DNA of 64,000 nucleotides, taken from positions 1 to 64,000 of the forward strand of contig PAQY01000010.1 in the NCBI GenBank assembly GCA_002709955.1, read 5' to 3'. Both the position numbers and the translations under genes were made by a program. Origin of the DNA: Rhodospirillaceae bacterium (GTDB lineage Bacteria; Pseudomonadota; Alphaproteobacteria; UBA8366; Aestuariispiraceae). The notes under the pieces were generated by a model. The model was given only the letters and a program-made list of their open reading frames with translations. It was not told where the DNA came from and ran no database searches. Numbering within the stretch: position 1 is the stretch's first letter; each line of letters starts with the position of its first letter. Below, in pieces: positions 7,495 to 24,324 of the stretch.

Positions 7495-8325
7495 TTACGT
7501 CCCCGAATTCATAAATTTCACCGCGGACTTGACCCAGTGTCCGTCTTGTTCTCCGGCCGCGTAACTTGCGCCCAGATGATCGCATTCATTCAGCGCCAGT
7601 GTTTCCACCATAACGCCGATTTTTTCCAAATCTGCTGCAAACTTTTCAGATTGTTTGATCAGATGTGGAAAATCCTTCGTGCCATAAGACACATGAAAAG
7701 GGGGGGCATCCGCGCGCAAATGCGTTTGCGGGGAGGCATCCACCTCTGCATTATTCGCTGGATCGCCCAGAAATCTAGGGCGCATCGACAGGCCCGATTC
7801 CGGACCGAACTGGAATGTGCCGGAAATTGGTAAGGCCCCTTTGATGACTGTGGCGGGCAGGTTGCGCTTGCTTTGCCAGTCGGTCTTCAGCGCCAGGAGG
7901 GCGGCCAGATGGCCCCCGGCGGAATGTCCACAGACATAAATCCGGTCCGGATCACCGCCCCATTTTGCAATGGATTTGTACATCCAGGCGACAGCATCCG
8001 CACAATCGTCAAAACAGGCGGGATAGACATGCTGCGGGGCCAGGCGATAGCCAATAGACACCACCGTAACACCACGCGCGTTTAGCCCCGGTGCCATTAT
8101 GGCCATCCATTCCTTATAGCCATTGGTCCAGCCGCCGCCATGCATCAGGCCGATGACCGCGCCTGTGGGCTGGTCCGCCGGATAGACGACGACGGATTGA
8201 TAGGGGTTTTCGCCGATGATGACGTTTTCGCCCTCAATGCCGGCGATGCGGGATGCGATTTCCTTTTGGTGGCGCGCGCCCAGTTCGCTGAACGGCTCCT
8301 GCGGTGGATAGTCTTCAGGTCGCAT
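7495..8325 (-). CDS. Alpha/beta hydrolase, formamidase/esterase type (candidate N-formylmaleamate deformylase)
   Basis: A 276-residue alpha/beta hydrolase resembling kynurenine formamidases and HGGG-type esterases. HGGGW is at 62–66, the nucleophile elbow GHSAGG gives Ser135, and Asp218 (GTKD) and His250 (CDH) fit a triad. There is no signal peptide, so it is cytosolic. The gene overlaps the end of the molybdenum hydroxylase large subunit by 11 bases. In the nicotinate pathway the NicX product N-formylmaleamate is hydrolysed by NicD, another alpha/beta hydrolase; this gene is the obvious candidate for that step, though of a different subfamily. This role is inference from context. Confidence 0.8.
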   Translation of the reverse strand: MRPEDYPPQEPFSELGARHQKEIASRIAGIEGENVIIGENPYQSVVVYPADQPTGAVIGLMHGGGWTNGYKEWMAIMAPGLNARGVTVVSIGYRLAPQHVYPACFDDCADAVAWMYKSIAKWGGDPDRIYVCGHSAGGHLAALLALKTDWQSKRNLPATVIKGALPISGTFQFGPESGLSMRPRFLGDPANNAEVDASPQTHLRADAPPFHVSYGTKDFPHLIKQSEKFAADLEKIGVMVETLALNECDHLGASYAAGEQDGHWVKSAVKFMNSGT

Positions 8326-10636
8326 CTTCGATTTCCAACATCTTGTTCAGAACTTTTTCCGGTTTCATGGGCAGGCTGTGCACATGGCCGCCAATCGCAT
8401 CGGCAATGGCATTGGCAATGGCGGCGGGGACAGGGACAAGGCCGATTTCGCCCGCCCCTTTTGCACCGAAAGGCCCGTCGGGTTCGGCAGCCTCTACAAT
8501 GATCGAATGGATGTTATAGGGCGTATCCAGGGTGGTCGGCACCTTGTAGTCCAGCAATGTCGGATTGGCCAATTTGGGGCCATCCCAGACCATTTCTTCG
8601 GTCAGCGCGAAACCCATGCCCTGGACAAAACCGCCCACGATCTGGCCTTCGACAGATGACGGATTGATCGCCCGTCCGACATCGACCGCAGACCAGGCTT
8701 CCACCACTTCTGTCTTGCCGCTGGCCTCGTCGGTCAGGGTATCAACGATCAGACAGCCAAAGCTGAAAACACCAACCTGAGGGAAGGGGATACCGCTGCA
8801 CACAGCCCGCTTGGGATCGACGGTTGGCTGGTTAAAGACCCAGGTGTGATGACCGACAATTGGTCCCCCCGCCGCCCAATGGGCGCGCAGGGATATCTGG
8901 TGGAAGGAGACTTCCTTGTCTGACCCGGACACTCCGACAATGCCGCCGGGGCGCAGTTCCAGGTCCATTTCTGAACATTCCAGCATCTGGGCGGCATGTT
9001 CTTTCAATTGCTTTTCAACCTCAGCCGCCGCCCCAACGACCGCGCGACCGGTGGTATAGGTGACACGGCTGGCCGTGGTGCCCCAGTTATAGGGGGAACC
9101 ATCCGTATCCGGGCTGGCCAGGCTAACCTTTTCCAGCGGGATTTTCAGGGCTTCGGCGCACATCTGGCTCAGCACGGTATCGGACCCTTGACCGATGTCC
9201 ACAGCCCCGGTGTTCAGCGCGACACTGCCGTCTTCAAACACGCGGATGATCGCCCCCGTGCCCAGCAGGCCGGAGATATGGGCGGCCAGGGCAACACCGG
9301 TGCCACGACGCTTGCCCTTGGGCGCAGTGCGGGATTTTCGGTTGTCCCAATCAGAGGCCGCGCGGGCTTTATCCACGCATTCCTGCAGCCCGTTAGAGGC
9401 TACTTTACCGCCACCAAACCAAGGGTCGCCTGGTTGAATCAGGTTCTTCTGGCGCAGATCCAGCGGGTCCATACCCAGCTTTTCTGCGATCTGATCCAAC
9501 TGGGTTTCCCCTGCAAAGGCGACTTGTGGATTGCCAAATCCCCGGAAAGCGCCAAAGCGCAGCTTGTTGGTATAGACCAGCTTGCCATGTGCTTTAGAAT
9601 TGGGAATGCGATAGGGGCCAAGGCACATCAATAGGCTGTAGCCCAGCACGCCGGGGCTATCGTCCCCAAAGGCCCCACAATCCAGCAACACTTCAACTTC
9701 GCGCGCGACAATGGTGCCGTCCTTTTTCACGCCGGTCTTACAGCGCACCTTGAAGGGATGGCGGGCGCGCACGCATTCAAAATCTTCCTCCCGGTTCAGG
9801 ATCATTTTCACGGGGCGTTTCGTCGCCTGGCACATTTGTACGACCAGCGGCTGGATGTGGGGCTCCATCTTGTTGCCAAAGCCACCGCCAACACGCGGGG
9901 TCAAACAGCGCAGCTTGCCCATGGGCATTTTCAGGCTTTCACAGACATTCGCCTGTACCCGGAAGACGGATTGATTGGCGGACCACAGGGTCACACGTCC
10001 CTGTTTGTCGATATCCGCCAGCGCGCCGCAGGGTTCTATTGCCAGATGCGCCTGCGGGGCAGTTTCATAGGTGCCTTCAACGATCAGGTCCGCTTGCGCA
10101 AAGCCTGCCTCCAGATCGCCTTCGTTTAACTCTGTATAAGACGCCATGTTGCCGGAGCTGATCGCCGGAAAGACCTTGATATAATCGTCCAGCTCTTCAT
10201 GAATGATCGCCGCACCCTCTGCCAGGCCTTCTTCCGGCGACAGGATGGCGGGCAGTTCTTCGTATTTCACGATGACGCGCTTGGCGGCTTCGCGGGCGAT
10301 GCCTTCTGTTTCGGCGGCAACGACGGCGACAGGCTCCCCAAAATAGCGGATTTTATCTTTGGCGATGGCGTGCTCATCCTTGATGAAGGCCCCCATGCGT
10401 CCATCGGGGAAATCCTCCCCGGTCAGAATGCAGACAACGCCTGGCACTGACAGCGCATCGGACAGGTCATAGCCCAGAATTTTTGCATGGGCGACGGTGC
10501 TTTGCGTGATCGCCGCATGCAGCATGTTGGGGCGTGACAGGTCCGCAATATACTCCGCCGCACCGGTTACCTTTTCCATGATTTCCAGGCGGTGGGGGCT
10601 GCTGCCGACGCCGTTAAATTCCAGACCGTCCATCAT
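8315..10636 (-). CDS. Molybdenum hydroxylase large subunit (xanthine dehydrogenase family)
   Basis: A 773-residue molybdopterin-cytosine-dinucleotide-type catalytic subunit. Cofactor loops are visible at VGGGFGNK (249–256), AFRGFGNPQ (363–371) and DIGQGSDT (about 480). The C-terminal KGAGE supplies the catalytic glutamate near residue 730. The AFRGFG loop is of the xanthine/nicotinate dehydrogenase type, not the cysteine-containing loop of true CO dehydrogenase. With the two subunits encoded just upstream it forms an S–L–M enzyme that hydroxylates a carbon next to a ring nitrogen using water. The likely substrate is a pyridine carboxylate or hydroxypyridine, judged from the NicX-like gene. 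Confidence 0.93.
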   Translation of the reverse strand: MMDGLEFNGVGSSPHRLEIMEKVTGAAEYIADLSRPNMLHAAITQSTVAHAKILGYDLSDALSVPGVVCILTGEDFPDGRMGAFIKDEHAIAKDKIRYFGEPVAVVAAETEGIAREAAKRVIVKYEELPAILSPEEGLAEGAAIIHEELDDYIKVFPAISSGNMASYTELNEGDLEAGFAQADLIVEGTYETAPQAHLAIEPCGALADIDKQGRVTLWSANQSVFRVQANVCESLKMPMGKLRCLTPRVGGGFGNKMEPHIQPLVVQMCQATKRPVKMILNREEDFECVRARHPFKVRCKTGVKKDGTIVAREVEVLLDCGAFGDDSPGVLGYSLLMCLGPYRIPNSKAHGKLVYTNKLRFGAFRGFGNPQVAFAGETQLDQIAEKLGMDPLDLRQKNLIQPGDPWFGGGKVASNGLQECVDKARAASDWDNRKSRTAPKGKRRGTGVALAAHISGLLGTGAIIRVFEDGSVALNTGAVDIGQGSDTVLSQMCAEALKIPLEKVSLASPDTDGSPYNWGTTASRVTYTTGRAVVGAAAEVEKQLKEHAAQMLECSEMDLELRPGGIVGVSGSDKEVSFHQISLRAHWAAGGPIVGHHTWVFNQPTVDPKRAVCSGIPFPQVGVFSFGCLIVDTLTDEASGKTEVVEAWSAVDVGRAINPSSVEGQIVGGFVQGMGFALTEEMVWDGPKLANPTLLDYKVPTTLDTPYNIHSIIVEAAEPDGPFGAKGAGEIGLVPVPAAIANAIADAIGGHVHSLPMKPEKVLNKMLEIEDAT

Positions 10637-11103
10637 GCACCTCCCCGAGATGCCGCCAGGGCGACAGCATCGACAATTTTACGATATCCAGAGCATCGAC
10701 AGATATTACCAGACAGTGCTGTGCGGATATCATCAATCGATGGATTGCTGTTGCGCTGCAGGAATTCATGGGCGGTCAGGATCATACCCGATGTACAGAA
10801 GCCACATTGAACCGCATCAGAATCGATAATGGCCTGTTGGATTGGCTTTAAGTCACCGCCTTCAGGCAATCCCTCGATGGTGGTGATTGATTGGCCTTCG
10901 GTATTGACCGCAAGGGTCAGACAGGCCCGCATTGGGGCACCATCCACCAGAACGGTACACGCGCCACAGACGCCCTGGTTACAACCCCGTTTGCTGCCCG
11001 TCAGCGCCAGGGTGTCGCGCAGCACGGTCAACAGGGTTGTTGTTGCCCCGCAGGACACTTCGTTGGCTTTTCCATTCACGGTCAGGGTGACGGGTTGGCT
11101 CAT
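10633..11103 (-). CDS. Molybdenum hydroxylase small subunit, two [2Fe-2S] clusters
   Basis: A 156-residue iron-sulfur subunit of full family length. The N-terminal plant-type ferredoxin domain has the cluster ligands in GCNQGVCGAC and a later cysteine in RACL; the C-terminal helical domain has CGFC and CRC. It passes electrons from the molybdenum site to the FAD subunit. It overlaps the genes on both sides by four bases (ATGA), which points to tight stoichiometric coupling of the three subunits. Confidence 0.95.
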   Translation of the reverse strand: MSQPVTLTVNGKANEVSCGATTTLLTVLRDTLALTGSKRGCNQGVCGACTVLVDGAPMRACLTLAVNTEGQSITTIEGLPEGGDLKPIQQAIIDSDAVQCGFCTSGMILTAHEFLQRNSNPSIDDIRTALSGNICRCSGYRKIVDAVALAASRGGA

Positions 11104-11984
11104 TGGGCGGGCTCCCGGATATTAATAAGATTATTAAAGGCGCGCTGTAACAGGCGCGGTACAACTTTCAACCGGTATTCAGCGCTGCCGCGAACATCAT
11201 CAACCGGGTCCAATTCCGCGACCAGCAATTCCGCAGCGGCGGCGATTGCGTCCGTTTCCAGCTTGGTTCCGATCAGGGCGTCTTCTGCGGCTTCAACCCG
11301 AACCGGGCCGCCGCCACATCCGCCAACCGCAAGGCGCAGCGTGGAAACGGTGTTGCTGGCATCGAAATCAATCGTCATCGCGATGGATGCCAGGGCAAAG
11401 TCACCAGCGATGCGGCACAGCTTTTCATATTGCCCGATGGAGCTTGCGGGCACAGGCGGCAGAATGACGGCGGTAACGATTTCGCCAGGTTCCAGGGCGG
11501 TTTCATACCAGCCCAGGAAGAAGTCTTCTGCCGGAATACAGCGGCGACCCTCCGGCCCTGCAATTTCAATTTCCGCATTTGCGGCGACCAGGGAAGGCGG
11601 GTAGTCCGCCGCCGGGTCGGCAAAGGAAATGGATCCACCAATCGTGCCCATATTGCGCACAGGCGGGTTGGCAATTTGCGATGCGGCACCAGAAACCACC
11701 TGATGGGCGGCCTTAAGGTCACTTTCGAAGGCGGTCTGGCGGTGGCGGCGCATGGCACCAATGCGAACCGAACCATCGGGTTGATGTGTGCATTGTGTCA
11801 GTTCTTCAATAGCAGAAAGGCTGACCAACCGTGATGGTTGGACCAGCCTTGCATTCATCAGTGCGACCAATGTTGCGCCCCCGGAAATCGGTCGGGCATC
11901 TTCGCCTGCTTCCTTTAATAAGGTTACAGCGTCTTCGACGGTGGTTGGTTTATGAAAATCTTGTTTCGTCATAAATGTCAGCAC
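11100..11984 (-). CDS. Molybdenum hydroxylase FAD-binding medium subunit
   Basis: A 294-residue FAD subunit of the CoxM/xanthine dehydrogenase type. The FAD segments are PISGGATLVALM near residue 37 and MGTIGGSISFADPAAD near 110; the C-terminal CO-dehydrogenase flavoprotein domain follows. It passes electrons from the iron-sulfur subunit to an unknown acceptor. GTG 11984 is chosen because AGGAAG lies five or six bases before it; this start overlaps the CoxG-like stop. ATG 11972 is the alternative but is too far from that site. Confidence 0.93.
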   Translation of the reverse strand: MLTFMTKQDFHKPTTVEDAVTLLKEAGEDARPISGGATLVALMNARLVQPSRLVSLSAIEELTQCTHQPDGSVRIGAMRRHRQTAFESDLKAAHQVVSGAASQIANPPVRNMGTIGGSISFADPAADYPPSLVAANAEIEIAGPEGRRCIPAEDFFLGWYETALEPGEIVTAVILPPVPASSIGQYEKLCRIAGDFALASIAMTIDFDASNTVSTLRLAVGGCGGGPVRVEAAEDALIGTKLETDAIAAAAELLVAELDPVDDVRGSAEYRLKVVPRLLQRAFNNLINIREPAQ

Positions 11985-12439
11985 ACTTCTTCCTGTGTTT
12001 CGGCCATCGTACGGAAGGAGTCTTCGAATTTCGCGGCCAATTTTGTGGCGATTTTTTTCATCATTCCAGACCCGTATCGACCCAGTCTGCCACTGATCTC
12101 AACGGTTGAGGAATAGTGGATTTCTGTGCCCCCCTCCGGCGTGTCGGTCAGGCGCATATCACTGATGGCCTGAACGACGCTGGCGCGGGACCCTTCCTCC
12201 CCTTTGGATTCGGTTCGAACATATTCCATTACGGTTTCTTCAATAACCTTTATGGTCATGCTGAACCGCGCCTTGATCGGACCGACAGAAACAACAACCG
12301 CCGCCTTGTAGGTGTCCGGGCCGGTCTCCTCAATGGAGTCACAGCCCGGTACACAGGTGATCATCTGCTCTGGATCGCGGATCAGGGTCCAGACCCTGGA
12401 TCGCGGCGCATTGACGGTGAAAGATTGTTCAATCTGCAT
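11978..12439 (-). CDS. CoxG-like SRPBCC-domain protein
   Basis: A 153-residue protein of the carbon monoxide dehydrogenase subunit G family, with a START-like fold. It opens with the typical FTVNAPRSRVWTLIRDPEQM segment, and VPGCDSIEETGPDTYK follows. CoxG proteins help to place or mature molybdenum hydroxylases, in some cases at the membrane. This one lacks the C-terminal membrane anchor of some homologues. The binding site AAGGAT precedes ATG 12439. It lies between the dioxygenase and the hydroxylase subunits. Confidence 0.88.
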   Translation of the reverse strand: MQIEQSFTVNAPRSRVWTLIRDPEQMITCVPGCDSIEETGPDTYKAAVVVSVGPIKARFSMTIKVIEETVMEYVRTESKGEEGSRASVVQAISDMRLTDTPEGGTEIHYSSTVEISGRLGRYGSGMMKKIATKLAAKFEDSFRTMAETQEEVC

Positions 12440-12469: not shown

Positions 12470-13552
12470 TCACACGATCTTGACGCGTTCCACAATCATC
12501 TTCGGGTCAACAATCTTACCATTTTCAATGATGACCTTGTTGTCCAAGGAGATCGTGCAATCCCGCATTGGGACATCATAATGTCCGCGCGTTCTGCGAT
12601 TGCCACCGCCCTGGGTATTCGGTCCGGTCGAAAACAGGAAGTTGCCGGGGAAGGTGCGCGCGGCTGCCCGGCTGCGCTCCGGCTGGTCACCATTCAGGGC
12701 CAGTCCATACCAAAGCGCCTGTGGGTTCAAGCCCCAGCCCAGATGCGATACAGCAAACGGGTCCATGTCGTCTGGGCTGTCCTTGTTGTCGTCCAGCCAG
12801 TCCTGCATCAGCTTTGCGTCCAGGCCGCCTTCGATCTTGCGAATAAAGCCATCTTTGATTTCCAGGCGAACTTCGTCCACGACATAGCGGCAGAAGGGAA
12901 GGATGATGATATCGCCCGGCGCAAAGACAACAGTACCATTGGCGGACCCTTCATCCGGGAAGGTGTGGATGTGACCACCCCCCCAATGGTCGAAACGACC
13001 AGGCTCGTCCGCAAAACCCCACTGAGTCATGACCGGATATTCACCCCGGGTGAAGGTCAGATCCGTACCCGCAGCCGACGTGACCCGTACTGATTTCGTC
13101 TTGGAATAAAGGGCGTCTGCATACTGGCAGGCTTCTTTCAAACCGGGGGGCGCAATCAGTTGTTCCAGGTCATCAGGCGCATCGATGATCATCAGAACCC
13201 GGGTTCCGTTATCCCGCACGTCCTTCAACCAGCTGGTGAACAGCGGCACATGGAAGATCACGATGATGTCGGCTGCCTTGGCGGCTTCCAATGTGCCCTT
13301 GCACTGACCAATCGTTGGAACGCCAACCTTGGTCCAGCCGGGGATGGAGTTGACGCACATTTCATAGACATCCGCACCCAGCGTATCAGCCGCGGCAAAG
13401 GAAGCCTGGATATATTCACGTCGTGTCGTCAGGTCACTGACGCAACAAATTGTTTCGCCCTTTTTTACATTGGACAATTTGAATTGGCGCTCAAAGAGCG
13501 ATGCCATTTTGGCCGGGTTCATTTCCTGAGGTCGGATTGAAGCAACGTGCAT
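12470..13552 (-). CDS. nicX: NicX-like 2,5-dihydroxypyridine 5,6-dioxygenase
   Basis: A 360-residue protein matching, from memory, the NicX family of iron(II) ring-cleaving dioxygenases (aminopeptidase M29-like fold). Shared segments include FADEPGRFDHW, SHLGWGLNP and NFLFSTGPNT. The iron ligands of Pseudomonas putida NicX (His265, His318, Asp320) correspond here to His270, His324 and Asp326, with nearly the same spacing. The expected reaction opens 2,5-dihydroxypyridine to N-formylmaleamate. ATG 13552 is preferred over the GTG at 13582 because AGAAGAGA precedes it. It is the first gene of the operon, behind an AT-rich promoter region. A related ring as substrate cannot be excluded. Confidence 0.85.
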   Translation of the reverse strand: MHVASIRPQEMNPAKMASLFERQFKLSNVKKGETICCVSDLTTRREYIQASFAAADTLGADVYEMCVNSIPGWTKVGVPTIGQCKGTLEAAKAADIIVIFHVPLFTSWLKDVRDNGTRVLMIIDAPDDLEQLIAPPGLKEACQYADALYSKTKSVRVTSAAGTDLTFTRGEYPVMTQWGFADEPGRFDHWGGGHIHTFPDEGSANGTVVFAPGDIIILPFCRYVVDEVRLEIKDGFIRKIEGGLDAKLMQDWLDDNKDSPDDMDPFAVSHLGWGLNPQALWYGLALNGDQPERSRAAARTFPGNFLFSTGPNTQGGGNRRTRGHYDVPMRDCTISLDNKVIIENGKIVDPKMIVERVKIV

Positions 13553-13611
13553 TGGTTTCTCTCTTCTAGTTATCGCCAACACGGGGCGGCGGGATCGTTT
13601 GAATTTCTATT

Positions 13612-16653: not shown

Positions 16654-17352
16654 TCAGTTGATATTCGATTGATCCAGGGTTGCTCGGGTGAATTTTTCGA
16701 TATAATTGATCAGCGTATCGGATGCTGCCGCAGCACCGCTGGAATCGCCATCGCCTATGGCTTTGGCAACCGCCGCATGCAAGCGCGCACACAGCGACAG
16801 GTCCAGCACTTGCTTATAATGCTGATACCAGAATCGCCGCGAAAGCCCGTGCATCAGACCCATAGCGCTGCGCGCATAATCGTTGCGGCAGACACGGGAA
16901 ATCATGCCATTCATGCGACGATCCAGGCGCATGAATTCAACATCATCAGCCGTGTGTGACGTTTCTTCCAGATTCGCGGCCAGTGTCAGAAAAGCGGCTT
17001 TCTCCTCCTGACTGGCACGGACGGCGCAAAGACGCGCCATCAGGCGTTCCACCTCACGCCGCACGGCCAGCAACTCCAACTGGTTGCGGACATTGATGTC
17101 AGATACCAGAATACCGCGCCGGGGGAGAATATTGACCAAACCCTCCCGGGCCAGCCGTTGCAGCGCCTCCCGAATTGGGGTGCGTCCAATCCCCAGTTCA
17201 AGGGACAGCGATGCTTCGGACAACACTTCGCCAGGTTCCAGGCGCAAGGTCACAATCCGCTCTTCAATCTGGCGATAGGCTTGTTCTGTCAGGCTAAGGC
17301 GTGCCTCTGCCTTTACGGATGCCTCTTCTTTGCGCTCCAAACCACGATCCAT
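16654..17352 (-). CDS. GntR-family regulator (FCD-type)
   Basis: A 232-residue GntR regulator. The winged helix spans about residues 18–85 (AYRQIEERIVTLRLEPGEVL and GIGRTPIREALQRLAREGLV), and the rest is an all-helical FCD ligand domain, with an FMRLDRRMN segment where such proteins bind metal or ligand. It lies in the middle of the unknown-substrate cluster and is the best candidate to bind the palindromic sites at 18155 and 23454. FCD regulators typically release DNA on binding an organic acid. Confidence 0.88.
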   Translation of the reverse strand: MDRGLERKEEASVKAEARLSLTEQAYRQIEERIVTLRLEPGEVLSEASLSLELGIGRTPIREALQRLAREGLVNILPRRGILVSDINVRNQLELLAVRREVERLMARLCAVRASQEEKAAFLTLAANLEETSHTADDVEFMRLDRRMNGMISRVCRNDYARSAMGLMHGLSRRFWYQHYKQVLDLSLCARLHAAVAKAIGDGDSSGAAAASDTLINYIEKFTRATLDQSNIN

Positions 17353-17694: not shown

Positions 17695-18069
17695 TTATAC
17701 CGGGACGACCCCGTGTAGCAGGAAACCTATCGTCAGACTAAGGCCCAGCGTGCAGACCAACCCTAAGGGTTGATCGCGCATCGAATGGGGAAGCAATTGA
17801 AACACCAAAGGACCGGTCAACAGGCCCAGCCCGGCAGCGATAATCGACCAACTGATGGGCAGGGTGTTTATGCACCATACCAGCAGGGAGATTATACAGG
17901 CCGCAATCGCGATGCCTGTTGCACAAACCAGCACCGTCATTGCGATGCTTGCGCCATCCCCCTTTGACACGTTCATCGGCAGAAACCCCGCCAGCAGAAT
18001 GATGCCCATCGTCAACAGAACTGCCGTGCCAAAGAGTGTCGCCAGGGCGGGAAGGTGTTGTACAAACAC
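17695..18069 (-). CDS. Membrane protein of unknown function (four segments)
   Basis: A 124-residue protein with four hydrophobic segments (about 8–30, 42–66, 72–92 and 102–122). The start is GTG 18069, with AAAGGA about ten bases upstream. It is divergent from the panB-like gene and shares its promoter region, so the two transcripts are likely co-regulated. I recognise no family. Confidence 0.6.
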   Translation of the reverse strand: MFVQHLPALATLFGTAVLLTMGIILLAGFLPMNVSKGDGASIAMTVLVCATGIAIAACIISLLVWCINTLPISWSIIAAGLGLLTGPLVFQLLPHSMRDQPLGLVCTLGLSLTIGFLLHGVVPV

Positions 18070-18194: not shown

Positions 18195-19064
18195 ATGACC
18201 GCCCAAGAAAAAAAGAAGCGGACCATCGGGGAGATACGAGATTCCAAAACCAGTGGCGAAAAAATGGTCTACACGTCGGTGCCGGACTATACATCGGCGC
18301 GCTGGGCAGAGGCTGCTGGTGTCGATGTATGCGTGGTAGGCGACAGCCTGGCGATGGTCGCCCATGGCTATCCCAGCACAATCCCCGCGACGATGGATAT
18401 GATGGTAATGCATGCCGCAGCCGTGCGCCGGGGGGCACCAAATACTTTCACATTGGGCTGTATGCCCTATCAAAGCTATAACACGGTGGACCGGGCACTG
18501 ATGAATGCGACCCGCTTCATGCAGGATGCCGGCTGTGATGCGGTCAAACCCCAGGGCGGTAAGTCACAGGCACATATCCTGAAGGCGCTGGTGGAATCCG
18601 GTATTCCCACTGCGTCCCATATCGGATTGACGCCCCACACGATCGCCATGTTTGGCGGGTTTAAAATTCAGGGGCGCACCGCGGAAACAGCCATGGTGAT
18701 CCTGGAAGATGCCCTGGCCATTCAGGATGCCGGATGTTTCATGCTGGAATTCGAAGCCGTTCCCGCGCCAATTGCCAAACTGATCTCTGAACAGTTGGAA
18801 ATCCCCACAATTGGGATCGGGGCCGGGGTCGGCACCGATGGTCAGATCCTGCTCAGCTATGATTTGTTGGGTGTGTTCACGGACTTCAAACCGAAATTTA
18901 CAAAACGATACGCCAATCTGACAGATGTCGCTGTTGCGGGCCTGAAAGAATATGTGCGTGAGGTTAAGGAAAGCCAATTCCCGGATGACGACCACAGCTA
19001 TTCGGTCGCGGATGGTGTGCTGGAAGAATTCCAGACCTTGATTGAGAAGCGTAAACAACACTGA
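18195..19064 (+). CDS. panB: PanB-like protein with altered metal site (ketopantoate hydroxymethyltransferase family)
   Basis: A 289-residue homologue of 3-methyl-2-oxobutanoate hydroxymethyltransferase. It aligns almost without gaps to my recollection of Escherichia coli PanB (GDSLAM, AAVRRGAPN, GLTPH, QGR, GIGAG, TDGQ). Asp45 (Asp50 here), Lys112 (Lys118) and catalytic Glu181 (Glu187) are kept. The magnesium ligands Asp84 and Glu114 are replaced by Cys89 and Gln120. No panC lies nearby; the gene heads a transporter and oxygenase operon. It is probably a paralogue acting on a different keto acid or running in the cleavage direction. ATG 18195 follows GGGAGAG. Confidence 0.85.
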   Translation: MTAQEKKKRTIGEIRDSKTSGEKMVYTSVPDYTSARWAEAAGVDVCVVGDSLAMVAHGYPSTIPATMDMMVMHAAAVRRGAPNTFTLGCMPYQSYNTVDRALMNATRFMQDAGCDAVKPQGGKSQAHILKALVESGIPTASHIGLTPHTIAMFGGFKIQGRTAETAMVILEDALAIQDAGCFMLEFEAVPAPIAKLISEQLEIPTIGIGAGVGTDGQILLSYDLLGVFTDFKPKFTKRYANLTDVAVAGLKEYVREVKESQFPDDDHSYSVADGVLEEFQTLIEKRKQH

Positions 19065-19106: not shown

Positions 19107-19409
19107 GTGAAGACATATACCGGCGACCGCACCATCGATGGCGTTCAAGTCATGGTCGATGGCGTGCCCCTAGACCCCAGATTTGACCTGAAAACCCTCA
19201 GTGAACTGGGGTTTGAATGGGGATATGAAGGAACAGCCCCAACACAATTGGCCTTGGCGCTGGCTGCAGATTTGTATGGTGATGATGCGCTGGCCCTTAA
19301 GGTCTGTGACACCCTGATGAAACGGGTCGTCGCGAATTTCGCCAATGAATGGGTCATGACGGAAGGCGATATAAAAGACGCCCTGTCAGACCAGGTGGAA
19401 CCGAAATAA
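19107..19409 (+). CDS. DUF6166-type small protein
   Basis: A 100-residue protein that opens MKTYTGDRTIDGVQV and contains FEWGYEGTAPTQLALALAAD, a pattern I associate with DUF6166. The function of that family is unknown. No signal or membrane segment is seen. The start is GTG 19107 with AGGGGAAA upstream. It lies 42 bases after the panB-like gene and is probably cotranscribed. Confidence 0.7.
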   Translation: MKTYTGDRTIDGVQVMVDGVPLDPRFDLKTLSELGFEWGYEGTAPTQLALALAADLYGDDALALKVCDTLMKRVVANFANEWVMTEGDIKDALSDQVEPK

Positions 19410-19497: not shown

Positions 19498-20559
19498 ATG
19501 TTTAACCTGAAAAAGATTGGGGTTGTTTCGACCCTGTGTGCGGCGGTTTTTGGGATGTCCTTTGCGGCAACCACGGCTTTCGCGCAAGAGCACAAGTTCA
19601 AAATGGCGACCGGTTGGTCCGGTGGACCGTTGATGGATATTGGCGCGCAAGCCTTTGCGGATCGCGTCAAAGAAGCATCCAATGGCCGGATTGAAGTTGA
19701 AGTTTTCGCCGCCGGGACGCTTGGCCCGGGACTTAAGGTTTCTGAAACAGTCAGCAGCGGCGTGGCGCAGATGGGCCACACCTGGGCAGGATATGACTGG
19801 GGCGCGGATCCGACGGCAGTGTTGTTTGGTGGATATGCTGGCAGCTTCGATACAGAACGGATGCTGCATTGGCTGTATCGCGCCGGTGGTGCCGAATTGC
19901 AGGCAGAATGGCGCAAGGAAAAATTCAACCTGGTTTCAATGCCGCTGTTCATTCGGACTGCGGAAGTTTTCCTGCATTCCCGCAAGCCTGTGAAATCTCT
20001 GGCTGACTTGCAGGGTCTGAAGCTGCGTACGGCTGGTGCCTGGTTGGAAATTTCCCAAAGCATGGGTGCTGCTCCGGTTACGACAGCCGGCGGCGAAGTG
20101 TATGCCGCGCTGGAACGTGGTGCTATTGATGCAACGGAATGGGGCACCTTGTGGGAAGATATTTCTCCTGGTTTCCACCGTGTCACAAAATACGTGATCA
20201 TTCCGGGTGTGCATCAGCCGACCGCACCGTTCGAACTGGTGATCAACAGCGAAACCTGGGCCACCTTGTCTGAAGCGGATCAGAAGCTGATCAAGGATGC
20301 TGCGTTTGATACGACGATGAATTCCTGGCTGACCATTGGTCAGGAAGATGCAAAAGCCTTGGCCTTCTATCGGGCACAAGGCAATGAAATCATCGAACTG
20401 GATGCCGAAACCCAGATCGCTGCACACAAGGCGGGCATCGAATGGGCGAATAAAATCGCTGCGGATAATGCCTGGTTCAAGCGTGTCTTGGACGATCAGG
20501 CTGCCTTTGCAGACCTTTGGAAAGATGCCAATCGCTATCGCAACGTCATCAGCGAATAG
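19498..20559 (+). CDS. dctP: TRAP transporter substrate-binding protein (DctP family)
   Basis: A 353-residue periplasmic binding protein with a signal peptide of about 29 residues (TTAFAQ before the cut). The mature part begins HKFKMATGWSGG. LADLQGLKLRTAGAWLEI near residue 170 is the DctP signature and contains the arginine that normally binds the carboxylate of the ligand. YAALERGAIDATEWG is typical of the keto-acid-binding branch. GGGAGG precedes the start. The operon's other enzymes suggest an organic or keto acid as cargo. Confidence 0.93.
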   Translation: MFNLKKIGVVSTLCAAVFGMSFAATTAFAQEHKFKMATGWSGGPLMDIGAQAFADRVKEASNGRIEVEVFAAGTLGPGLKVSETVSSGVAQMGHTWAGYDWGADPTAVLFGGYAGSFDTERMLHWLYRAGGAELQAEWRKEKFNLVSMPLFIRTAEVFLHSRKPVKSLADLQGLKLRTAGAWLEISQSMGAAPVTTAGGEVYAALERGAIDATEWGTLWEDISPGFHRVTKYVIIPGVHQPTAPFELVINSETWATLSEADQKLIKDAAFDTTMNSWLTIGQEDAKALAFYRAQGNEIIELDAETQIAAHKAGIEWANKIAADNAWFKRVLDDQAAFADLWKDANRYRNVISE

Positions 20560-20572
20560 TCGTGTGAATTCG

Positions 20573-20607
20573 TTTGGTCGAGAGGTGCAACAGCCCTCTC
20601 GACCAAA
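20573..20607 (+). terminator. 13-bp stem-loop between dctP and dctQ
   Basis: TTTGGTCGAGAGG (20573–20585) and CCTCTCGACCAAA (20595–20607) form a perfect 13-bp stem with a nine-base loop. Only a short T-rich stretch follows, so it probably protects the dctP message or limits read-through rather than ending it. It is the same design as the hairpin after the ABC binding-protein gene. Confidence 0.7.
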
Positions 20608-20639
20608 TGTTTGTTGGTATCTTATTTTCAAAGAGGGCT

Positions 20640-21161
20640 ATGATGCACTCAATCATCCGCGTGATCGAAGGCCTGACGACGCGCACAGGCTTCCTGATAT
20701 CATTAACGATTATTCCGCTGGTGCTGACCGCGACCTATGAGGTCTTTGCCCGCTATGTATTTGGCGCACCGACGATCTGGGCCTATGAATTGGGCTGCAT
20801 GATCACCGGTACGCATTTTTTGATTGGCGCAGCGATGACACTGGCGCGCGACGGTCATGTTCGAATTGATATTCTGTATGATCGACTGTCCTTAAAGTCG
20901 CGGGCCTTTGTGAATCTGGCCTTTTACGTGGTGCTGTTTTTGCCGTTTCTCGCATTGTTGAATGATGCGTTGTGGCATTACGCGATCACGGCCTTTCACA
21001 GTGGGGAGCGGTCCGGCAACTCAGCCTGGAACCCGCTGATCTGGCCGTTTCGCATGCTGCTGGCCTTTGGCTTTATCCTTTTGGCGCTGCAAGTCATCGC
21101 AGAATGCCTGAAAAGCCTGCTGACCCTGCTCAATCGACCCTATTCTGACGTGGAGAGATAA
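20640..21161 (+). CDS. dctQ: TRAP transporter small permease (DctQ family)
   Basis: A 173-residue membrane protein with four hydrophobic segments and the DctQ pattern VFARYVFGAPTIWAYELG near residues 35–52. It forms the membrane complex with the DctM protein encoded five bases later. ATG 20640 (or 20643) follows AAAGAGGGCT; an upstream GTG in the frame falls inside the stem-loop and is rejected. RDGHVRIDILYDRL is also typical of the family. Confidence 0.92.
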   Translation: MMHSIIRVIEGLTTRTGFLISLTIIPLVLTATYEVFARYVFGAPTIWAYELGCMITGTHFLIGAAMTLARDGHVRIDILYDRLSLKSRAFVNLAFYVVLFLPFLALLNDALWHYAITAFHSGERSGNSAWNPLIWPFRMLLAFGFILLALQVIAECLKSLLTLLNRPYSDVER

Positions 21162-21165
21162 GGCA

Positions 21166-22509
21166 ATGGAAGCCCTTTTGATGTTCCCGGCATTGCTGCT
21201 TTTGATTTTTTTGGGCGTGCCGGTCGCCTTTGCCCTGATGGGGGTCGCCTTTGTCTTTGGCTTGTTCGCCTTTGGTGAGGCTTCTTTCTTTTTGTACACC
21301 CAGAAGATTGAGGAAATCGCCGGTAACTTCATTCTGGCCGCTGTTCCCATGTTCGTCTTCATGGGGGCCATGCTGGAACGGTCTGGTATCGCTGAGAATC
21401 TGTTCAGTGCTGTCCATCTGTGGACACGGCGACTGCCAGGTGGTCTGGCGATCGGGACGATCATCATGTGCATCATTTTCGCTGCATCGACCGGTGTGGT
21501 CGGCGCGACAGAGACCGTAGTCGGTCTTTTGGCGATCCCGGCCATGATGCGGTATAAATATAACAAATCCCTGATTTCCGGAACGATTTGCGCGGGGGGA
21601 TCCTTGGGAACAATTATTCCTCCCTCCGTCGTGGTCGTTGTTCTGGGGCCAATTGCGGATGTGTCCATCGGTGATCTGATGGTTGGGATGATCTTCCCTG
21701 GATTGCTGTTGTCATGCCTGTACATCCTCTACATTTTGGGTCTGTGTATCCTGAAACCCGAAGCCGGTCCGCCACGGACACTGGAGCCGGGTGAAGTCGA
21801 TATGCCGCTTTCTGAAAAGCTGATCATCACGGCAAAGGCTTTGGTGCCGCCGGTTGCGATGATTTTCGCTGTGCTGGGCTCCATCATGATGGGATGGGCT
21901 GCGCCAACGGAAGCATCCGCACTGGGTGCTTTGGGTGCATTCCTGCTGACGGTTCTATATGGCAAATGCACATGGCAGACCTTTAAAGAGGCGATTTTAA
22001 AGACCCTGACTGTGACGGCGATGATCATGCTGATCCTGTTGGGCGGCAGCATCTTCACCGGGGTTTTTGTCGGTTCTGGCGGCATGAGCATCATGCGGGA
22101 GATGATCGATGCGGTAAATCTGGGTCCGTGGGGCTTGTTGTTCCTGTTCCTGGCCTTGGTCTTTATTGCTGGTTTCTTCCTGGAATGGATTTCGATCCTG
22201 CTGATCTTTGTTCCCCTGTTCATCCCGTTCATCCGGGAAAGCTGGGCGGCAACCGGTTATGGCGGATATTTTGATCCAGTATGGTTCTGCATGCTGATCC
22301 TGGTCATGATCCAGTCCAGTTATCTATCGCCGCCCATGGCACCGGCGATTTTCTATCTGCGCGGTATCGCACCGCCGGAGATTACGCTGAAGGATATGTA
22401 TAAGGGCGTTGTGCCATTCCTGGTCATACAGGGCATAACCTTGGCGATTGTTATGGCATTCCCCCAGATAACGCTGTGGTTACCCAAACAGCTGCTGGGC
22501 TTTAACTAA
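21166..22509 (+). CDS. dctM: TRAP transporter large permease (DctM family)
   Basis: A 447-residue membrane protein with about twelve hydrophobic segments. It begins with the typical LLMFPALLLLIFLGVPVAFA block and carries PMFVFMGAMLERSGI and GTIIPPSVVVVVLG, family hallmarks of the transport core. It uses a sodium or proton gradient to move the ligand delivered by DctP. Length and order (P–Q–M) are standard. Confidence 0.94.
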   Translation: MEALLMFPALLLLIFLGVPVAFALMGVAFVFGLFAFGEASFFLYTQKIEEIAGNFILAAVPMFVFMGAMLERSGIAENLFSAVHLWTRRLPGGLAIGTIIMCIIFAASTGVVGATETVVGLLAIPAMMRYKYNKSLISGTICAGGSLGTIIPPSVVVVVLGPIADVSIGDLMVGMIFPGLLLSCLYILYILGLCILKPEAGPPRTLEPGEVDMPLSEKLIITAKALVPPVAMIFAVLGSIMMGWAAPTEASALGALGAFLLTVLYGKCTWQTFKEAILKTLTVTAMIMLILLGGSIFTGVFVGSGGMSIMREMIDAVNLGPWGLLFLFLALVFIAGFFLEWISILLIFVPLFIPFIRESWAATGYGGYFDPVWFCMLILVMIQSSYLSPPMAPAIFYLRGIAPPEITLKDMYKGVVPFLVIQGITLAIVMAFPQITLWLPKQLLGFN

Positions 22510-22528: not shown

Positions 22529-23416
22529 ATGCGCAAAGAAGACATAATGAGCCGTCCGGCCAAGGTTTTGAGCCAGGCACAACGGGAAGAATATTTCGAG
22601 GATGGCGCGGTCGTCGTGCCAGCCTTGATTGGCGCGGAATGGCTGGGGAAACTGCGCGATGCGATTGATCGCCAGATCGAATTGAGCCGCGCCCATACCA
22701 AGAGTGGGGCGATATTTGACCTGGAGCCCACTCATACGGCAGAGGAGCCACGCCTGCGGCGTGTTTCCAGCCCCTGTGATCAGGATGAAGTGTTCTGGCA
22801 ATTCCTGACGGATTCCAAGATTGGGGATGCGTTTGAAGATCTGCTGGGCCCGAATGTGAAATTCTATCAGTCCAAGCTGAATTTTAAATGGGCCAAGGGT
22901 GGGGCAGAGGTGAAATGGCACCAGGATGCGCCGTTCTTTCCCCATACCAATACCAGCGTTCTGACCTGTGGTCTGTATCTGAACGATTGCGATATGGATC
23001 AGGGGCCGCTGGCCATCCTGCCGGGCAGCCACAAGGGTCCGATCTATGATCATTATACAGAAGACGGGCATTGGACCGGCGACATTCAGGACAAGGATCT
23101 GGGTAAGCTGGATGTCGATAATGTCCGCTATCTGCATGGGCCAGCCGGGTCCGTGACCTTCCATAATTATCGTACGGTGCATGGGTCCAAACCCAACCTG
23201 ACCGGGCGGGGGCGCCCCCTTCTGCTGAATGTCGTATCGTCGGCGGATTCATTGCCCTATACCTCTCAACCGCTGCCATCACGCTATGAACAGGCGATTA
23301 TTCGGGGGCAACAGGCCCGCTGGGCGCATCATGAGGATGGCGATTACATCGTCCCGCCGGATTGGAGTGGCGGCTATACCTCAATCTTTGCAACACAACA
23401 GCGCGAACAGATGTGA
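22529..23416 (+). CDS. Phytanoyl-CoA dioxygenase (PhyH) family protein
   Basis: A 295-residue iron(II)/2-oxoglutarate oxygenase of the PhyH family. The iron triad is visible as His131 and Asp133 (WHQDAPF) and His218 (RTVHGSKPN); an arginine about ten residues further on (GRGRPLL) can hold 2-oxoglutarate. Members hydroxylate acyl-CoAs, amino acids such as ectoine, and other small molecules; the substrate here is unknown. It follows dctM by 19 bases and is in the same operon. GAGGTGATAGGA is the nearest binding site; a second ATG at 22547 is possible. Confidence 0.9.
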   Translation: MRKEDIMSRPAKVLSQAQREEYFEDGAVVVPALIGAEWLGKLRDAIDRQIELSRAHTKSGAIFDLEPTHTAEEPRLRRVSSPCDQDEVFWQFLTDSKIGDAFEDLLGPNVKFYQSKLNFKWAKGGAEVKWHQDAPFFPHTNTSVLTCGLYLNDCDMDQGPLAILPGSHKGPIYDHYTEDGHWTGDIQDKDLGKLDVDNVRYLHGPAGSVTFHNYRTVHGSKPNLTGRGRPLLLNVVSSADSLPYTSQPLPSRYEQAIIRGQQARWAHHEDGDYIVPPDWSGGYTSIFATQQREQM

Positions 23417-23526: not shown

Positions 23527-24324
23527 ATGGAACTTCAAACGTCTCCCATGTCGGACCGCCAGCGCAAGTATCGGGGTGAATACCGGGATCGTATTGCCGG
23601 ATGGTACAATGGTTTCTTGCATGTCGCCGTGATCTATACGATCGGCATCGCGGCCCTGTACATCTATATCAGCAATATGCAGTCGCCGCTGTGGTGGGAA
23701 TGGTTGACCGTGCCCATCGTGTTCCTGATGTGTAACTTCTTTGAATGGTTCCTGCACCGCCATGTCATGCACCGGCCGCTGAATATTATCGGGCTGCGGG
23801 CGATCTATACCCGCCATACCCTGATGCACCATCAGTTCTTCACAGAAAATGAAATGCGTTTCGCCGATCAGCGCGACTGGCGTGTTACATTCTTCCCGCC
23901 CTATGCGCTGGTGACGTTCATTCTGGCAACCATCCCAGGCGCATTGGTGCTGGGCTGGCTGGTCTCCCCAACCGTGGGATGGCTGACAATGTGCACGACG
24001 ACAGGCATGTACCTGACCTATGAATTCATGCATTTCTGCTGTCATGTGGAAGAAAACTCCTTCGTGCGCAACATGCCGTTTGTGAATACGATCCGCCGCC
24101 ACCACACCGCCCATCATGATCAATCCTTGATGATGGAGCGGAACATGAACCTGACCTTCCCAATCGCCGATTGGTTGTTTGGAACGTCGGATCTTAATCG
24201 CGGTTTGCTGGGCCACATCTTCAATGGCTACAGCACCAAGCATATCCGCAAGGATATGCGCAAAACCTCAAAGACACCGAAGGTTGCCCCTGCTGCGGGT
24301 ACAGCGCCTAGCATGGCCAGCTAA
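23527..24324 (+). CDS. Membrane fatty-acid-hydroxylase-superfamily protein
   Basis: A 265-residue integral membrane di-iron enzyme. Histidine clusters are at 77–82 (HRHVMH), 97–102 (HTLMHH), 169–173 (HFCCH) and 192–197 (HHTAHH), the pattern of sterol desaturase, carotene hydroxylase and fatty acid hydroxylase relatives. Four membrane segments flank them. Such enzymes use oxygen to hydroxylate lipids or alkyl chains. AAGGAGAG precedes the start. It has its own copy of the candidate operator, so it belongs to the regulon, but how a membrane oxygenase serves the pathway is unclear. Confidence 0.88.
   Translation: MELQTSPMSDRQRKYRGEYRDRIAGWYNGFLHVAVIYTIGIAALYIYISNMQSPLWWEWLTVPIVFLMCNFFEWFLHRHVMHRPLNIIGLRAIYTRHTLMHHQFFTENEMRFADQRDWRVTFFPPYALVTFILATIPGALVLGWLVSPTVGWLTMCTTTGMYLTYEFMHFCCHVEENSFVRNMPFVNTIRRHHTAHHDQSLMMERNMNLTFPIADWLFGTSDLNRGLLGHIFNGYSTKHIRKDMRKTSKTPKVAPAAGTAPSMAS

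Follow-up and report, generated by a model that had tools for sequence, protein, structure and literature searches.

A conserved PanB-fold subfamily with an altered active site near oxygenase genes, and its possible role in one-carbon transfer

The window, the whole 64,000-nucleotide stretch of contig PAQY01000010.1 (Rhodospirillaceae bacterium) that was analysed, contains a gene for a PanB-like protein at the head of a row of genes on the same strand. The row continues with a DUF6166 protein, the TRAP transporter proteins DctP, DctQ and DctM, a PhyH-type dioxygenase and an FA_hydroxylase. The original prediction placed the gene in a transport and oxygenase operon, and the same-strand row fits a putative operon of this kind. 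The genes of the locus are:

16654..17352, - strand: GntR/FCD regulator (Pfam match)
17695..18069, - strand: small membrane protein, a recurrent neighbor (no Pfam family; 23/62 Cys/Gln loci)
18195..19064, + strand: PanB-fold paralogue (Cys/Gln form), 289 aa, ATG at 18195, stop ending at 19064
19107..19409, + strand: DUF6166 protein, GTG start (PF19663, 98.8 bits)
19498..20559, + strand: TRAP solute-binding protein DctP (Pfam match)
20574..21161, + strand: TRAP small permease DctQ, read from its first candidate start codon, TTG (Pfam match)
21166..22509, + strand: TRAP large permease DctM (Pfam match)
22529..23416, + strand: PhyH-type Fe/2-oxoglutarate dioxygenase (PF05721, 103.6 bits)
23527..24324, + strand: membrane di-iron hydroxylase of the FA_hydroxylase (sterol desaturase) superfamily (PF04116, 33.8 bits against a cut-off of 31)

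The solved proteins that match DctP best by sequence include 2hzk (TakP), the keto-acid binder 7ug8, and lactate binders (2zzv with its relatives). The PhyH of the window resembles ectoine and leucine hydroxylases, among others. A search by sequence for a solved relative of the FA_hydroxylase found none.

The PanB-like protein matches PF02548 with 314.2 bits over positions 9-264. It also scores 279.8 bits against the panB equivalog TIGR00222 (cut-off 207.55) and 302.1 bits against NF001452 (cut-off 272), and thus automatic annotation would name the gene panB. The 28 best solved folds found by Foldseek are all PanB chains, with isocitrate lyase and PEP mutase folds matching at lower scores. A MAFFT alignment to E. 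coli PanB is nearly free of gaps, at about 40% identity, and gives the following correspondences (all by alignment):

18342..18344, + strand: codon of Asp50, E. coli Asp45, kept
18459..18461, + strand: codon of Cys89, E. coli Asp84; the group has Cys, Ser or Ala there
18546..18548, + strand: codon of Lys118, E. coli Lys112, kept
18552..18554, + strand: codon of Gln120, E. coli Glu114; Gln in the whole group
18618..18620, + strand: codon of His142, E. coli His136, kept
18636..18638, + strand: codon of His148, E. coli Gln142; His in the whole group
18747..18749, + strand: codon of Glu185, E. coli Val179; a new Glu in the whole group
18753..18755, + strand: codon of Glu187, E. coli Glu181, kept

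The secondary structure of an AlphaFold2 model (mean pLDDT 88.4) puts Cys89, Ser141, Glu185 and Leu220 in strands and Gln120 at a strand end. Asp45, Asp84 and Glu114 of PanB are presumably the Mg ligands (UniProt/HAMAP). Asp84 and Glu114 are present in all five distinct solved PanB sequences that we compared with the window protein; of the three presumed ligands, the window protein keeps Asp45 and has Cys and Gln at the other two. The original prediction spoke of two metal ligands replaced, Cys89 for Asp84 and Gln120 for Glu114, with the equivalents of Asp45, Lys112 and Glu181 kept. The alignment bears out each of these residues and adds His136 to those kept. The difference from canonical PanB stands, but the direction of change implied by the word "replaced" is not established, as an outgroup of three distant PF02548 proteins (on long branches) puts the root where the Cys, Ser/Ala and canonical groups meet in a three-way split; the two Gln groups together need not form a strict clade.

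Relatives of the window protein were taken from the window's order, from named genomes (79 loci) and from class and phylum samples. The named-genome search used two patterns of the Gln group and kept the best 80, so that the sample favors the Cys/Gln form. In this Gln-favoring sample of 142 distinct homologues (E. coli and the window included), 68 have the Cys/Gln pair, 30 have Ser or Ala with Gln, and 44 are canonical. The differences are coordinated. Gln114 and Glu179 occur in all 98 sequences without Asp84, Val179 occurs in all 44 canonical ones, and no intermediates between the two forms were seen among the 142. Ser135 and His142 (E. coli numbering) are invariant in the Gln group, which thereby differs from canonical PanB at Gly/Ala135 and Gln142, and there are further changes at positions 23, 25, 32, 42 and 214. 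The window protein has Gln114, Glu179, Ser135 and His142 and lies with the group on one side of the branch. At the kept positions, one of the 30 Ser/Ala-Gln sequences has Tyr at 136 and one of the 44 canonical sequences has Glu at 45. The Cys at position 84 is one of three small residues (Cys, Ser, Ala) found in the Gln group; the steady marks of the group are Gln120, Glu185, His148 and Ser141 in the numbering of the window protein. Since Glu185 and His148 are steady, the predicted site would gain a carboxylate and a histidine besides lacking two carboxylates.

That the Cys/Gln form would make a separate group had been raised as a question, and the trees agree that it does. When selected rows were put into a maximum-likelihood tree after masking of 12 active-site columns, 36 Gln rows and 33 canonical rows split with support of 100/99, with a program warning of some long branches among the canonical rows. 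The Cys group (100/100) and the Ser/Ala group (100/99) form separate branches of the same tree. Scores fall apart in the same manner, dropping from 466.6 to 293.3 bits in the class sample with nothing between, and from 532.7 to 302.6 bits in the phylum sample, where 2/398 genomes lie above the gap (the window's own and one other). A later sample of 35 rows contained 31 canonical sequences (Val or Ile at 179), including one from Enterococcus within a panBCD operon and one from Sagittula within panBC, and the remaining four were Cys/Gln. The Cys/Gln pair was absent from all PanBs of clear pantothenate context that we examined (the five solved proteins and those of panBC and panBCD operons). The Cys/Gln pattern is more than chance, and marks a distinct and conserved subfamily of the PanB fold, for which the name PanB given by current models is very probably wrong. 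Among the matches listed from the open-licence PMC literature (CC0/CC BY/CC BY-SA), none describes the Gln114/Glu179 group.

The gene is not decaying. Over 15 pairs of close relatives dN/dS is 0.004-0.095, the ratios being rough as dS is at least 1.0 in 12/15. Cys/Gln members from Alpha- and Betaproteobacteria and others share a mean identity of 0.82-0.83, compared with 0.43-0.55 for the five linked proteins tested, and the Cys/Gln protein is thus more conserved than each of these partners. The homologue in Methylorubrum thiocyanatum has 80% identity to the window protein. Among the five, the divergence of DUF6166 tracks that of the Cys/Gln protein most closely (Mantel r 0.62); the value for PhyH (Mantel r 0.20) is not clear of shuffles (34/500).

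A second, canonical panB, which the original prediction had asked after, is present elsewhere in the window's own genome, where it overlaps panC. The lack of a panC partner, also predicted, extends to the whole group: panC is near 0/102 loci of the Gln form (79 with up to 10 kb of flank) versus 25/43 canonical loci (most with about 1.5 kb). Both families were searched for in 25 genomes, 17 of them with the Gln form, and in 20 chosen for having it, which with two shared gives 35 Gln-form genomes. Canonical PanB, called by residues and for G349 by identity alone, is found together with PanC in 27/35. Four others (G010, G012, Stella and Fodinicurvata) have neither a canonical PanB nor a full PanC. 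The search for PanC gave no match in Stella and Fodinicurvata, and in G010 and G012 gave matches of 22-23 bits over about 50 of 268 positions (Pfam cut-off 20.7), which we take to be another protein because the same matches occur beside a real PanC in relatives such as G000. In the last four (G106, G129, G332 and G409) the search found PanC but no canonical PanB. These genomes are fragmented, 68-96% complete in 280-520 contigs. The stretches around their panC, two of them cut by contig ends, contain no PanB, and both of the PanB fragments found in G332 come from the Cys/Gln form. They are the main evidence that some bacteria might use the Cys/Gln form for pantothenate.

Two genomes of the window's own taxonomic family, G004 and G005, have PanC and no PF02548 gene that we could find. 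Another source of ketopantoate may exist there, and PanC without PanB thus also arises without the Cys/Gln form. The panB of M. nodulans is given as located on pMNOD02 in the available text of PMC3082293. This copy is of the Cys/Gln form, and both forms are present in six further genomes of Methylobacterium or Methylorubrum. Across the 35 genomes the presence of the Gln form does not track PanC, and there is good support for the Cys/Gln form having some role besides ketopantoate synthesis. The new reaction suggested by the original prediction holds to this extent, given the separate group, the canonical panBC elsewhere and a Cys/Gln pair not seen in the pantothenate contexts examined; cleavage or another keto acid, which it also named, stay conjectures.

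Genes for oxygenases recur near the Cys/Gln gene. Neighbors were counted with models built from the loci themselves, in the 35 full Cys/Gln loci (those of 20 kb or more), with the Ser/Ala loci, not random loci, as the contrast. An FA_hydroxylase-type protein is present in 31/35 full Cys/Gln loci and in 0/17 Ser/Ala loci. GntR is present in 32/35, a count inflated by its being a common family. DUF6166 occurs in 22/35 (36/62 of all Cys/Gln loci), PhyH and DctP in 18/35 each, and the small membrane protein in 14/35. The Ser/Ala loci have PhyH in 7/17 and Rieske proteins in 6/17. The transporters vary between loci and may be TRAP, ABC or MFS.

Some of the loci have genes for one-carbon enzymes nearby. 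In 4/17 Ser/Ala loci a gene strongly matches a DmdA-like H4F demethylase (in L100, 466.8 bits against a cut-off of 410); weak matches to the DmdA model comprise two of GcvT type in the 17 Ser/Ala loci and 2/62 Cys/Gln loci. MeTr, RACo or MTHFR genes occur in 8/62 Cys/Gln loci, in most cases accompanied by URO-D-type genes, MtaA-like or other. The window's group showed no match to purU in its 79 named loci, and folD was found in one; the link to H4F oxidation therefore rests on a second family of PF02548 proteins, described below.

This second non-canonical family, which we call Moc-type, shares about 25-33% identity with the window protein. Copies are located at L171:4484-5428, L172:3909-4799, L174:4757-5521, L175:4160-5077 and L245:32818-33633. 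His136, Glu179 and Glu181 are present in 10/10 members. Asp84, Lys112 and Glu114 are absent in 10/10 (one has Gln at 114), and Asp45 is absent in 9/10, L175 being the only one to have it. The window protein, which keeps Asp45 and Lys112, is outside the family, and three Moc-type rows form their own branch (100/100). At a score of at least 244 bits, the family is present in 21/386 sampled genomes of the same class, with four copies in G202. A further divergent PF02548 protein, at L173:4651-5508, keeps Asp84 and Lys112, has Asp at 114 and attaches close to the canonical group in the tree, its branch being very long.

Moc-type genes are annotated panB in several rhizobial plasmids and are often found beside desaturase/MocE, PhyH or Rieske oxygenase genes. 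A MocD-, MocE-, PhyH- or Rieske-like gene lies within two genes in 11/21 alphaproteobacterial Moc-type loci, a count without a background control; in three of the 21 sampled loci the gene caller did not give the PanB-like gene as such. The order desaturase, MocE-family ferredoxin, reductase and Moc-type gene is found in R. etli, R. leguminosarum, Sinorhizobium sp. B11 and R. indicum. The R. indicum row starts with MocR (739 bits, cut-off 650) and has purU after the PanB-like gene (330.6 bits, cut-off 285.95); this purU-bearing locus is on one plasmid. After a Bradyrhizobium copy come a protein of the sterol-desaturase family and a MocE-like ferredoxin, which at 135.1 bits falls narrowly short of its cut-off (136.15). 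Direct homology between the oxygenase partners of the two families was considered and is not supported, as the FA_hydroxylase is significantly similar neither to the desaturase of R. indicum nor to the Bradyrhizobium sterol-desaturase protein.

Rhizopine is an O-methyl compound, and mocDEF is its demethylating system. The mocCABRDEF genes are described as catabolic (PMC6668481). R. etli RHE_PE00443 is taken to be the Moc-type copy of plasmid p42e, since the sole place on p42e that matched has the right length. According to the available text of PMC3082293, a Mg-binding domain was not detected in RHE_PE00443, which neither replaces nor complements panB. Moc-type proteins are like the window group in PF02548 membership, in His136 and the Glu179/Glu181 pair, in oxygenase-type neighbors and, through this tested member, in the role outside pantothenate synthesis that we infer for the window group. 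They differ in lacking Lys112 and, with one exception, Asp45, and in that several adjoin desaturase-MocE genes, not FA_hydroxylase.

Canonical PanB (EC 2.1.2.11), which the window protein resembles in fold and length, combines metal-assisted enolisation of a keto acid with one-carbon transfer from methylene-H4F (PMC7770189; PMC4814558). The metal serves the enolisation (PMC7770189), a step that one-carbon capture would not need, and this counts for a one-carbon role. Judged from the alignments, the residues for enolisation appear to be absent partly in the window group and almost fully in the Moc-type family, with His136 and Glu181 kept and Glu179 common to both, which together with the oxygenase neighbors suggests a one-carbon enzyme. 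Given the altered active site, and neighbors that are oxygen-using enzymes instead of vitamin genes, the most likely task of the gene is to handle one-carbon units while some compound is broken down. The reading that we tentatively favor, and hold to be quite possible, is that the PanB paralogue moves a formaldehyde-level one-carbon unit between H4F and the product of a neighboring oxygenase. Relative to ketopantoate hydroxymethyltransferase, the keto-acid/metal end of the Cys/Gln form would be altered and the one-carbon end kept. The di-iron hydroxylase or the PhyH dioxygenase would oxidize a methyl group of an imported carboxylate to formaldehyde or a hydroxymethyl group, which, in the most likely version, the Cys/Gln protein would capture onto H4F as 5,10-methylene-H4F. 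The use of H4F, the direction of transfer, the substrate and the reaction are all proposals here.

Several observations speak against one-carbon transfer of this kind, among them the purU and folD counts given above and the unchanged growth of the E. coli panB and ltaE deletion described below. With Asp45 and Lys112 kept, the window protein may still bind a keto acid, and the TRAP binding protein of the window appears keto-acid-like by sequence. The Pfam match of the FA_hydroxylase is just above the cut-off, the corrinoid methyltransferases found as neighbors yield methyl-H4F and not formaldehyde, and the four fragmented genomes noted above have PanC without a canonical PanB found. The neighbors point to oxygenase-linked one-carbon transfer, with the other keto acid named in the original prediction as a live rival.

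The rival that keeps most of PanB chemistry is an H4F-dependent dehydroxymethylase (a retro-aldolase) acting on a different, more polar 2-oxo acid, which we consider possible but rather doubtful. PhyH or the di-iron enzyme would hydroxylate a branch methyl, and the Cys/Gln protein would then remove it as methylene-H4F, much as methylserine hydroxymethyltransferase is proposed to act in TRIS breakdown; such a retro-aldol removal is a strong rival. The kept Asp45, Lys112, His136 and Glu181, the TRAP binding protein of keto-acid type and the likeness of PhyH to ectoine and leucine hydroxylases, among others, agree with it. So does the fact that positions 25, 42, 179 and 214 are all changed, Val214 being an active-site residue that has been mutated (PMC7610986), and catabolic H4F dehydroxymethylation has precedent (PMC10848231). 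It has to contend with the absence of two of the three presumed metal ligands for enolisation and with transporters that differ in type among the loci. Chemistry free of H4F is an unlikely alternative in which the PanB barrel would house a lyase, hydrolase or isomerase acting on the oxygenase product, as in the PEP mutase/isocitrate lyase superfamily. The lower-scoring Foldseek matches to those folds would fit, and the new Glu/His pair could form a new site, but one-carbon enzymes are encoded near part of the loci and the closest relatives are H4F enzymes.

It is improbable that the protein works as a PanB for pantothenate, with Glu185/His148 standing in for Asp84/Glu114 at the metal site. Its score above the panB equivalog cut-off, the PanC without canonical PanB of G106, G129, G332 and G409, and the naming of the Cys/Gln copy on pMNOD02 as panB (PMC3082293) are what such an enzyme would have in its favor. 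They are set against the canonical panBC of its own genome, the four genomes that keep the Cys/Gln gene without a full PanC, the absence of panC near any of the 102 loci, the Methylobacterium and Methylorubrum genomes with both forms, and PanC without any PF02548 gene in G004 and G005. A non-catalytic or decayed copy would explain the absence of two expected ligands and is very improbable in view of the low dN/dS, the high identity among Cys/Gln members relative to the five partners and the kept catalytic residues.

The one-carbon reading has parallels in other enzymes. Fae, whose fold differs from that of PanB, has the same type of reaction as the one proposed here (formaldehyde onto a pterin carrier), with no homology implied. 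Methylserine hydroxymethyltransferase is a PLP enzyme of unrelated fold. In TRIS breakdown it offers a likeness in its proposed catabolic transfer of a hydroxymethyl group to H4F (PMC10848231). The carrier of Fae is tetrahydromethanopterin (PMC7073904). Deletion of panB and ltaE in E. coli, made to test PanB as a candidate promiscuous catalyst, leaves formaldehyde-dependent growth unchanged (PMC7073904), and thus canonical PanB does not load formaldehyde measurably. The spontaneous reaction of formaldehyde with H4F is too slow for growth, and the available text leaves an uncharacterised enzyme possible (PMC7073904). It is conceivable, if speculative, that the Gln/Glu group, and perhaps the Moc-type family too, is the missing H4F counterpart of Fae, condensing formaldehyde or an oxygenase-bound hydroxymethyl group with H4F. 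Oxidative demethylation would then release no free formaldehyde.

One set of the proteins called PanB by current models, among them the M. nodulans copy that has appeared in print as the pantothenate gene, is very probably not PanB, and therefore vitamin B5 prototrophy would be over-called where only the Cys/Gln form is present. If the one-carbon reading is true, it matters to the question of whether formaldehyde is loaded onto tetrahydrofolate by an enzyme in cells, and would tie several clusters of oxygenase genes, from marine and soil bacteria, to one-carbon metabolism.

The window also encodes a xanthine-dehydrogenase-type molybdenum hydroxylase of three subunits with CoxG (8315-12439). 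We considered a link of this set to the PanB-like gene and rejected it, as the two share no cluster in other loci, single subunits aside. Nicotine catabolism was likewise set aside as an explanation for panB, as PMC3891541, in the text available, concerns pantothenate supply. The available main text of PMC10418091 makes no mention of PanB-like proteins in type 1 mlp clusters. Beside the molybdenum hydroxylase genes is one for a protein of 370 aa (12470-13582) that matches nothing in Pfam or NCBIfam at E 0.001, and beyond them are genes for an alpha/beta hydrolase (7495-8325) and for ABC transporter proteins of the branched-chain type. The molybdenum hydroxylase set looks like a separate catabolic cluster.
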